From: a virus
Length of the DNA stretch: 24,790 nt
Reading direction: 5' to 3' (one strand)
IMG/VR virus record: IMGVR_UViG_3300036785_000428
Coordinates: 1-24,790 of that record
Shown here piece after piece: positions 1,167 through 8,623 of this stretch. How positions within the stretch are numbered: position 1 is the first letter of the stretch; every line of letters starts with the position of its first letter. Both the position numbers and the translations under genes were made by a program. The notes under the pieces are model-generated. The model did no database searches. It worked only from the letters and a program-made list of their open reading frames with translations, and was not told the DNA's origin.

Positions 1167-2127
1167 AACTGCTGACATGGACGACCAGTCACTGTTCCAG
1201 GCCGCGATCGCGGACGAGGCGCCGGCCGCACCCGACACCAGCATTCCCGATGTACCGCAGGATCAGACCGAGGCGCCTCCTCCTGGCGAGCGGCGGCGCG
1301 ATGCTTCTGGTCGATTTGCTCCGGCTACTCCTGAAATACCCCCTGGTGTTACCGGACAGCCGGGTGCGCCTGCTCCCGCGCCGTCGCCGGATGGGGCTGA
1401 AACGGTTCCCTCCTGGCGGCTGCGCGAGGAGCGGGAGGCGCGTGAGGCGTATGCCAGTCGGCTGGCCGAGCGCGATAACCAACTCAGCCAGGCACTCAAT
1501 TATCTGCGTCTTTTGCAGCAGCAGCAGCAGGCCGCGCCAGCGCCGCAGGCCCCTGACCCGATCCTGGATCCGGCCGGCTATTCGCAATTCAATCAGAGCG
1601 CGCTGCAGACGGTCGAGCAGCGGTTTGCCAATCAGCTGCGCACCATCCAGCTGGAGAATAACCTGCAGCTTACCCGCATGCAGGTCGGCGAGGAGATATT
1701 TGATGATGCCTATGCGGCCTTCATGGATGCCGGTGGCACCGACCAGGGCTTTGCCCGCTCGATCGTGAATTCATCCAATCCTGGCGCGGCCATGGTGAAC
1801 TGGTACCGGCAGGCCACGACCCTGCAGCGGATTGGCAATGATCCCGAGGCCTATCTGCGCTCGCACGAGGAGGCGTTGCTCAACGATACGTCTTTCCTGC
1901 AGCGCGCGGTCGAGCGTGCGCGTGCGATCGCGGCCAATCCGGCGGTACGCGGCCAGGCACCGGGGCGAGCGGCGAGCTCCACTCCATCAAATGTGGTGGT
2001 ACTGCCGCCGTCGCTGCAGAACATCCGCGGCGGCACCACAGCCGAGGCGGGAGCTCCCGGCGGCGAGCATGATCCGATGAGTGATGCCGCACTGTTCAAT
2101 CAGGCATTGCGTCCGGCCGGCAAATAG
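1156..2127 (+). CDS. Putative scaffolding (capsid assembly) protein
   Basis: A 323-residue protein placed directly before the major capsid gene, the usual location of podophage scaffold genes. The N-terminal 90 residues are acidic and Pro/Ala-rich, and include the motif RDASGRFAP that I associate with phage scaffold-like proteins. Residues about 94-125 form a charged heptad-like helix (LREEREAREAYASRLAERD) running into a Gln stretch (LLQQQQQ). The middle third is helical and Gln-rich. The C-terminus is flexible and ends in a short basic tail (ALRPAGK), as expected for a scaffold that docks on coat protein. GGAGGT lies five bases before the ATG. The assignment rests on composition and position. 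Alternatives are an internal head protein or a head protease substrate. Confidence 0.7.
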   Translation: MPIETADMDDQSLFQAAIADEAPAAPDTSIPDVPQDQTEAPPPGERRRDASGRFAPATPEIPPGVTGQPGAPAPAPSPDGAETVPSWRLREEREAREAYASRLAERDNQLSQALNYLRLLQQQQQAAPAPQAPDPILDPAGYSQFNQSALQTVEQRFANQLRTIQLENNLQLTRMQVGEEIFDDAYAAFMDAGGTDQGFARSIVNSSNPGAAMVNWYRQATTLQRIGNDPEAYLRSHEEALLNDTSFLQRAVERARAIAANPAVRGQAPGRAASSTPSNVVVLPPSLQNIRGGTTAEAGAPGGEHDPMSDAALFNQALRPAGK

Positions 2128-2305
2128 GCATAGGCTGCAGCCTCGCCCCGTTGAGCGAAATCAACGAAGACTAAAGCGCCTGCTCCGAGCGAAATCGCGA
2201 GCGTCGCCTGATTGCCGCGACAGGCAATCGCTCCACTGATCACAGCAACGTCGATCGGACGACTATCGATGTCGTGCGCTCGCGGGAAACAGGAGTGGCG
2301 GCGCC
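2128..2305 (+). promoter_or_regulatory. Non-coding leader of the capsid gene with several inverted repeats
   Basis: This 178-base gap is the longest non-coding stretch in the window. It contains a perfect 12-bp palindrome at 2132-2143. It also has four possible stem-loops: GTTGA/TCAAC at 2150-2165; GCTC.CGA/TCG.GAGC with one unpaired base at 2182-2202; GATTGCC/GGCAATC at 2210-2229; and ACGTCGAT/ATCGATGT with one G-U pair at 2248-2272. The first two share the loop GCGAAA and the third has GCGACA. AGGAG at 2291-2295 serves the capsid ATG at 2306. No hairpin is followed by a T-run, so a simple intrinsic terminator is unlikely. No convincing -35/-10 pair was found. A structured 5' leader that boosts or times capsid synthesis is my inference. 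Confidence 0.5.
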
Positions 2306-7351: not shown

Positions 7352-8623
7352 ATGGCAGCAGGTCCAGGCTGGGGTCCGCCCGCAATCGATGCCGGAGCAA
7401 TCTCGGGATTGCTCGATCCGTTCATCAAGCGGCAAAAGGAGGAGCGCGCCGCATCGTCACTCGCGCAGGGCATGAAAGCATTGCAGGCCGGCGACATGAG
7501 CGGAGCCGCGGCGGCGATGGAGGGGCTCGCGGCAGACAGTCCGACGCTCGCCGCCCATATGATGGCTCAGTTCACGGCGCAGCAGCAGCTTAATGAGACC
7601 AGACAGCAGCACGGTGTTGAAACCTACTACAAGGGAATAACGCCGCATGTGGTTGGCGAGGGACCGTTTGGCAAGGACTACGAAAAGCCTGGGTTGCCGC
7701 CCGGCTACAAGCTGCCCTTTGGAGCATCAGCGCAGCCTGGCGCGACTGGCGCAACGGTGCAGCCGCAGCCAACACAGCAGGGAAGCGTCAATTCGCAGCT
7801 GATTGCCGCGTTGCGCAGCGGCAAGACCGGCGATGAATTCCTGGCAATGGTGCCGGCGGAATACCACGGCCTGATCAAGCAGCTCGCCAACTACGAGCAG
7901 GATCCGCGGCGCTATCAGGCGATGGGGAAGAACGAGATCCTCGGGCTCGCACAGGCCTACAAACCGGATTACCAGCCGGGCAACTATGAGTCTGTCAGAC
8001 TGACCAAGAGCGGCTTGCAGCAGGGCACTCCGAACAGCACCGGCGGCCAGGTCAAGAACCTGAGCGTGGCGAGCCATCATGTGGAAGCGCTGTATCGGCT
8101 GCGCGACCTGATGACGGAAAACCATGTCTCTCCGACCGACAGTGCGACCGTCAACAGATTGCTGCAGGTCGTGTCCAAGGAATTCAATGACCCGACGCTG
8201 GCGAGTTGGGATGCATTGCGTGCAGTAGTCGCGCCGGAGATCCAAAACGTCATCAGTCAAGGGAAGGGTGGCACCGGACACGAGCGCGAGACACTGGCAA
8301 GGATCCTGGCACCAAACTCCAATGCATCATCCTCCTTCGCTGTTCTCGATACGCTGAAGGGAGCAATGGCGCCGCGGTTCGCAGCGCTGAAGCAACAAGT
8401 CGATCAGGGTTTCCATGGCTCGATGCCGTTTCACTACGCTGGGTATCTCCTTCCAGCGGCCAAGCTGAACACGCTGGAGGCAACCGGTGTCAATGTGGCC
8501 GGGCTTACGCCAAAGGCAGTCGAAACGTTGTTTCGAAACCGCGACAAGCCGAATGCGCTGAAACAATTCGATGCACAATTTGGCGAGGGCCGTGCCGAGG
8601 AGGTGCTCAATGGCCTCCGATGA
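7352..8623 (+). CDS. Putative DNA ejection protein, P22 gp20 position
   Basis: A 423-residue soluble-looking protein. The N-terminal 85 residues are helical (GAISGLLDPFIKRQKEERAA; ALQAGDMSGAAAAMEGLAAD; LAAHMMAQFTAQQQL). A Pro/Gly-rich linker follows at about residues 105-145, then a helical C-terminal half with LASWDALRAVVAPEIQNVIS and LDTLKGAMAPRFAALKQQVD. The last 40 residues (TPKAVETLFRNRDKPNALKQ; FDAQFGEGRAEEVLNGL) resemble the tail end seen in large phage internal proteins. Position and size parallel P22 gp20 (about 471 residues). It starts three bases after the gp7-like stop, and its final 14 bases contain the start of the next gene, so translation is coupled. I recognise no enzymatic motif. 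Confidence 0.6.
   Translation: MAAGPGWGPPAIDAGAISGLLDPFIKRQKEERAASSLAQGMKALQAGDMSGAAAAMEGLAADSPTLAAHMMAQFTAQQQLNETRQQHGVETYYKGITPHVVGEGPFGKDYEKPGLPPGYKLPFGASAQPGATGATVQPQPTQQGSVNSQLIAALRSGKTGDEFLAMVPAEYHGLIKQLANYEQDPRRYQAMGKNEILGLAQAYKPDYQPGNYESVRLTKSGLQQGTPNSTGGQVKNLSVASHHVEALYRLRDLMTENHVSPTDSATVNRLLQVVSKEFNDPTLASWDALRAVVAPEIQNVISQGKGGTGHERETLARILAPNSNASSSFAVLDTLKGAMAPRFAALKQQVDQGFHGSMPFHYAGYLLPAAKLNTLEATGVNVAGLTPKAVETLFRNRDKPNALKQFDAQFGEGRAEEVLNGLR

Follow-up and report, generated by a model that had tools for sequence, protein, structure and literature searches.

The leader that separates the scaffold gene from the major capsid protein (MCP) gene in the window, by which is meant the whole 24,790-base IMG/VR virus record IMGVR_UViG_3300036785_000428, contains a conserved cis-acting RNA element, an array of hairpins that lies on the coding strand and whose stems covary; on this point very little doubt is left, and selection clearly acts on the hairpins. 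An RNA-level role tied to the expression of scaffold and capsid is supported by the conserved loop and the covarying stems, in line with the original prediction, made from the letters of the window, that the leader might hold an RNA element controlling capsid output. More specifically, the leader may be an operator array in which each hairpin displays the pentamer CGANA in its loop, and the scaffold may bind these loops with the N-terminal end of helix 86-126 (PSWRLREERE...) and so set the translation of the shell genes. Control of scaffold and capsid translation by the scaffold through this array is given a probability of about one half, with the binder suggested by a correlation that is confounded by gene linkage. 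Among the relatives the array mostly borders on the ribosome-binding site of the scaffold gene, an arrangement that would amount to autogenous control; in the window clade it lies between scaffold and MCP, where MCP output would respond to free scaffold.

The gene order of the window agrees with that of the Pseudanabaena phage Pam1 record, in which portal, scaffold, MCP and cement are annotated (Table 1). Because the 323-aa protein has no match in PHROG and Pfam searches, its identity rests on homology and position, and it is taken as the scaffold on those grounds. Both ends of this protein carry alike short helices of an LFxxA type, SLFQAAIAD and ALFNQAL, at residues ~8-18 and at the C-terminus, which are perhaps capsid-binding. 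Upstream of the scaffold gene, a 135-aa ORF (535-942) lies on the minus strand, opposite to the head genes and between two plus-strand ORFs, and is also without a match in PHROG and Pfam searches. Searches with the MCP returned 37 and then 80 viral loci, together with 39 genome loci, many of them from Rhizobiales records; some loci repeat one contig. A search for relatives using the protein at 7352-8623 found none.

Table 1. Features of the window, with positions counted from its first base
Feature	Position	Strand	Remarks
Scaffold gene, 323 aa	1156..2127	+	Pam1-like position and length; aligns with the scaffolds of relatives
Codons of scaffold residues 84-103, VPSWRLREEREAREAYASRL	1405..1464	+	Segment tracking loop type
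12-bp palindrome AGGCTGCAGCCT	2133..2144		Not conserved
Hairpin 1, CGTTGA[GCGAAA]TCAACG	2149..2166	+	Pairing probability at least 0.95 in context
Candidate anti-Shine-Dalgarno stretch GCGCCTGCTCC, 5' foot of hairpin 2	2176..2186	+	Minimum-energy fold pairs it with the Shine-Dalgarno region
Hairpin 2, GCTCCGA[GCGAAA]TCGCGAGC	2182..2202	+	7 bp, C2198 bulged
Hairpin 3, GATTGCC[GCGACA]GGCAATC	2210..2229	+	Pairing probability ~1.0
Stem-loop 4 of the original prediction	2248..2272	+	Pairing probability 0.12; outside the conserved array
Shine-Dalgarno AGGAG of the MCP gene	2291..2295	+	15 nt before the ATG at 2306
MCP gene, 391 aa	2306..3481	+	phrog_334, E 2e-47; PF13252, E 4.3e-35

Hairpins 1 to 3 carry the three near-identical loops (GCGAAA, GCGAAA and GCGACA) that had first drawn attention to the leader, at the places then given, and the repeat noted 34 nt apart is borne out, with GAGCGAAATC at 2153 and again at 2187. 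The earlier list of four stem-loops holds for these three, which are conserved and covarying; stem-loop 4 is present, but without conserved pairing in relatives. Neither this hairpin nor the 12-bp palindrome has a counterpart in the aligned window-clade relatives, and both, though listed with the element at first, are incidental. Another perfect 12-bp palindrome, GCGCCATGGCGC, surrounds the MCP start codon at 2300-2311. Within the window at 1900-2400 no intrinsic terminator (a GC-rich hairpin followed by a T run) was detected, no sigma-70 promoter was found in the leader, and no conserved complement for loop-loop kissing was seen by eye.

When the leader was dinucleotide-shuffled 3000 times, three GCGANA hairpins arose in none of the shuffles, and three hairpins with any one common loop class in 2. 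The comparison of folding energy with shuffled sequence, proposed at the outset as a check, gives an excess of stability over dinucleotide shuffles (z = -2.07), and a rerun with strands gave -2.2 on the plus and -0.1 on the minus strand for the whole leader and -2.7 for hairpins 1-3. This excess is modest and coding-strand-specific, and folding energy alone, at z of about -2, was set aside as weak proof of an element. An excess of about 2 sd in a single leader would suit hairpins that arise by chance, or as a by-product of composition or coding constraint; such an origin is scarcely credible, being already contradicted by the covariation, the conservation of the loop over widely diverged phages, the strand asymmetry and the result of the context-blind search described below.

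A tree built from 89 MCPs places the window with nine relatives in a supported group of ten, each of which has the array in the gap from scaffold to MCP. The 5' arms of hairpin 1 in this group read CGTTGA, CGCTGA, CGCTGG, GGCCTGA, GCCAGGA, GGGGTGA and GCCGGGA, each with a matching 3' arm, while the GCGANA loop stays constant. Among the homologues, 93.9% of the cells of hairpin 1 are paired and two-sided changes occur in 5 of 7 pairs, with a covariation score of 0.748 as against 0.208 when shuffled. The likeness of the loops had been named as the stronger argument for the element, and rightly so: the motif is kept across the phage family and the stems change in a compensatory manner. A loss of the hairpins in homologues, with no compensatory changes, had been named as the outcome that would speak against it; the homologues keep both.

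The same array is found in more distant relatives, down to 37% MCP identity, directly upstream of the scaffold gene, as 2-4 copies of the core CGANA that are ~25-34 nt apart. The forms A[GCGANA]T and C[ACGANAC]G, in which N may be any base, are common among the loops. CGANA occurs 193 times in 89 leaders and is flanked there by stems of at least 5 bp in 83 cases; other patterns of like form are stem-flanked in a mean of 3.5% of cases, and CGANA inside MCP genes in 23 of 659. In an alignment of 26 leaders, two-sided changes are present in 11 of 12 pairs, and the covariation is 0.604, compared with 0.173 when shuffled and at most 0.203 in a slid control. These leaders were aligned by sequence (MAFFT) and picked for two CGANA hairpins at the right spacing, with a structure named from one member, so some pairing bias is built into this test, and the count of 83 in 193 is the less selected of the two. 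A covariance model of the scaffold leaders finds the MCP leader of L005 with E 3.2e-8; the element at the scaffold and MCP positions is therefore the same.

G-U pairs outnumber A-C mismatches in the stems by 23 to 11, and this excess, together with the folding of the coding strand and the conservation of the loop rather than the arms, shows that the element acts as RNA and not as DNA. In a palindromic DNA operator it is the arms that are conserved, which is the reverse of the array here. In L088 and L056, a TTGACA-like hexamer is seen by eye upstream of the first array hairpin; it could mark a promoter, which would make the array a 5' leader in these two.

The array belongs largely to this one family of phages of soil bacteria, in which it stands in the leader of the scaffold or of the MCP gene. 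A context-blind DNA pattern search of IMG/VR, run with no gene information, returned 54 stretches. All of those with stems of at least 4 bp on both hairpins are found either ahead of a gene of this MCP family or on a contig that stops short of the MCP, and several stretches that precede the MCP have imperfect stems by a strict count; most of the other stretches have short stems (1-3 bp) and no MCP in the vicinity. A second array elsewhere in the genome was not seen among 18 phage genomes, Rfam 15, at its curated gathering score, matches neither the window nor any of ten related loci, and a literature search for a described motif found no usable paper. When 397 genomes of the host order, Hyphomicrobiales, were searched with cmsearch, using a model that needs two hairpins and that single host hairpins would escape, three matches were obtained. 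The credible one, L262, is phage-like and lies near an MCP-family fragment; L264 matches with one hairpin, and the match of L263 is inside a host ORF. On this count a motif spread through host genomes was rejected.

These results bear on the possibility that the array is instead recognised by a ribonuclease or RNA-binding protein of the host, or by some other phage protein, acting on the translation or processing of late mRNA. The scaffold has no recognisable RNA-binding domain, and no phage gene family specific to the genomes with CGANA (type A) arrays was found, none among ten, the shared families being core head and tail genes; both points would suit another binder. However, one credible match in 397 host genomes, as counted by a model blind to single host hairpins, is a poor fit to a host target, and close phages differ in loop and array type, which would be odd for a shared host factor. 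Such a binder is thus considered quite unlikely.

Evidence for the scaffold as the binder comes from natural changes of the loop. Loops shift together within an array, L044, L045 and L017 reading CGTYA where relatives read CGANA, and L110 having CGNA in all three copies where its relative L102 has CGANA; some of these cases were read by eye. Change in concert suggests a trans-acting recogniser, and we infer that this is a protein. A segment of the scaffold tracks the loop type: VPSWRLREERE accompanies CGANA, and L044, L045 and L052 carry VGMRQLREA, mostly with CGTYA loops, so that the swap is seen in three scaffolds and two MCP lineages. Of its four loops, L052 has two of CGTYA and two of CGANA (CGACA) type. 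At loop base 3, A and T stand at 94 to 2 with VPSWRLRE-type segments and at 1 to 5 with VGMRQLREA (Fisher 1.5e-6, an overstated value, as related sequences are counted as independent).

The replacement of the scaffold segment is local. Between L045 and L050 the identity is 0.74 in the N-terminus, 0.32 in the segment and 0.78 in the rest, and between L052 and L008 it is 0.68, 0.29 and 0.70; for L050 and L008, a CGANA/CGANA control, the values are 0.79, 0.64 and 0.63. Residues 86, 87, 88, 90 and 95 of the window scaffold, plus 17, are among the columns that best tell CGANA arrays from the other type, and AlphaFold2 (mean pLDDT 78, pTM 0.48) predicts a helix at 86-126 that starts exactly at the segment, after a low-confidence linker. 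There are exceptions, in that L085 and L099 each have one CGTNA loop with a WRLRE-type scaffold, and VPLRE-type scaffolds are also found with CGANA. Charge gave no sign that the scaffold binds RNA: taken as a whole the protein is acidic (net -5 to -19), and the start of the helix is only mildly basic.

The MCP tree contains two independent contrasts between the A and B types, which leaves no power for a tree-corrected correlation, and because array and scaffold gene are adjacent, co-inheritance can mimic co-evolution. Further scaffold searches for CGTYA-type phages, in which the new loci were not read singly, identified no new VGMRQL-type lineage. Among the specific functions proposed at first, a coat- or scaffold-binding site fares best in its second form: a scaffold-binding operator is the best-supported option, suggested by the correlation of segment and loop. 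Nothing was found in support of a packaging-like signal, and an RNA-processing site is conceivable.

The output of the array is probably translation. In 27 of 30 such scaffold leaders, the last CGANA starts 19-25 nt before the scaffold ATG, beside the Shine-Dalgarno sequence. The window differs, with ~89 nt between its last array loop and the MCP ATG, a distance at which direct occlusion of the ribosome at the MCP start is unlikely. A switch at the MCP ribosome-binding site, by anti-Shine-Dalgarno pairing, is offered as a suggestion only, from predicted folds. Hairpin 2 has a pairing probability of 0.97 in a local fold and of 0.06 in the full leader, where the minimum-energy fold has hairpins 1 and 3 and lacks hairpin 2; there the 5' arm of hairpin 2 pairs with the Shine-Dalgarno region, its 5' foot at 2183-2186 being opposite 2291-2295. 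The two pairings are mutually exclusive in the window fold. In L007, L046, L049 and L054 the same place pairs in another register (CCTGCT:AGCAGG), and in L002 and L003 another partner is predicted to be preferred at the Shine-Dalgarno region. Scaffold binding in the window could switch the ribosome-binding site by way of hairpin 2 versus the anti-Shine-Dalgarno pairing, with either sign.

Relatives without CGANA arrays have a second type (type B) at the same place, consisting of tandem units of the form S1-GCCGCCN-S1'-linker-GGGCG. The carriers include Rhizobium-type prophages, sphingomonad and Caulobacter loci, and Pam1. Of the GCCGCC/GGGCG units, 106 stand in leaders and 7 elsewhere, with 1 on the minus strand. 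Each of three positions of S1 is paired in 71-73 of 84 distinct units that had not been selected for it, and S1 covaries in a chosen subset of units; the pairing of the loop with GGGCG is invariant, and the units are possible H-type pseudoknots. They are seen in the portal-scaffold leader at L119:4962-5096 and in more than 30 other loci (e.g. L121, L122, L131, L133, L144 and L207), and Rfam has no match in L119, L131, L133 or L207. L119, L084, L104, L144, L133 and others with the second type also have a CTCC[CACGACATT]GGAG-like hairpin 15-40 nt before the scaffold ATG, in which the 3' arm is the likely Shine-Dalgarno sequence and the loop has a CGANA core.

The occurrence of two array types in one place suggests a shared role. 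That role might be simply to form compact, stable folds that protect or delimit the mRNA, so that scaffold and MCP messages outlive that of the portal, with the loop kept for folding and no dedicated phage protein. The array does stand right after the upstream gene and before highly expressed shell genes, the pseudoknot-like arrays of related phages are unrelated to it, as if any compact fold would serve, and the CUUCGG hairpins, with their variable stems, are a precedent (PMC8948821). This account is nevertheless unlikely, given that loops change in concert within a leader and track a local protein segment, and that the distance from the last hairpin to the scaffold ATG is near-constant, which stability does not need.

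Nineteen relatives (e.g. L008, L050, L076 and L102) have a strong hairpin resembling an intrinsic terminator between scaffold and MCP, a short way ahead of the MCP start, with the sequence ACCCGCC..GGCGGGTTTTTT in most; L133 is a weak match among the 19. The 18 related phages with a terminator between scaffold and MCP are without the second, pseudoknot-like array type. Conserved-loop hairpins upstream of a strong intrinsic terminator, as in these 18, would be expected of an antitermination element, comparable to lambda nut or HK022 put, that works on RNA polymerase and lets it pass downstream terminators. It is very unlikely that the array is of this kind: the window clade and most other array phages lack the terminator, and a distance to the scaffold ATG that hardly varies speaks for translation.

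Control by the scaffold through an operator array may extend to a modular code, in which tandem RNA elements in the scaffold or capsid leader are recognised by the scaffold, and RNA motif and helix segment are exchanged together; this broader idea is tentative, a possibility worth keeping in mind. To the same tentative degree, the motifs of the code would be the CGANA hairpin, the CGTYA hairpin and the GCCGCC/GGGCG pseudoknot-like unit. The operator proposal names a definite RNA site and a definite protein segment, each with natural variants. Should it be true, phages would keep shell and scaffold in balance through an operator array with a swappable RNA motif in a fixed place, and a new small hairpin-peptide pair would be added, along with an RNA element family absent from the Rfam copy searched.

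Several known systems invite comparison. In phage P22, free scaffold controls scaffold synthesis after transcription, an autoregulation of the scaffolding protein that is said to have been described by King, Hall and Casjens in 1978 and by Casjens and Adams in 1985; a literature search for a text on it found no usable paper, and we know of no hairpin array described in P22 and of no defined RNA site for this autoregulation. The head module here has a P22/Pam1-like gene order and is proposed to be controlled by free scaffold in a similar way; the window clade differs in that its array precedes the MCP. In phage lambda, a helix of N bearing Arg and Trp reads boxB, a short hairpin with a small loop, and the array resembles this in its short, small-loop hairpins and in the Arg/Trp-bearing helix proposed as their reader. 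It differs in standing before head genes and in its proposed output, translation, and its loops, with the core CGANA inside GCGANA or ACGANAC, are not GNRNA (GNRA-like) apical loops of the lambda type.

Phage T4 provides closer parallels in the RNA. Its CUUCGG intercistronic hairpins combine a conserved loop with a variable stem between phage genes (PMC8948821), but the loop sequence is another one, the array loops not being UUCG loops closed by C-G, and the array here occupies one place in the genome and changes its loops in concert. In the T4 gene 32 operator, a pseudoknot in the leader nucleates protein binding near the ribosome-binding site (PMC3014915). The type-B arrays of the relatives are likewise pseudoknot-like, although built of tandem GCCGCC/GGGCG units, whereas the window has hairpins. 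The T4 gene 43 operator is a hairpin upstream of the start codon at which gp43 represses its own gene, and between phages the loop and top bases are conserved and the rest varies (PMC3014915). That operator has one hairpin, in place of the 2-4 here, its binder is a DNA polymerase, and its loop is UAAC and not CGANA. As in operators of the gp43 or MS2 type, the loop of the array is conserved and the stem is free to vary but paired. The hairpin is next to the ribosome-binding site in the 27 of 30 scaffold leaders (-19 to -25); in the window the nearest loop of the array is ~89 nt from the MCP ATG. The likeness to the gp43 operator, seen at the level of sequence, is that of a leader hairpin with a conserved loop in a variable stem.
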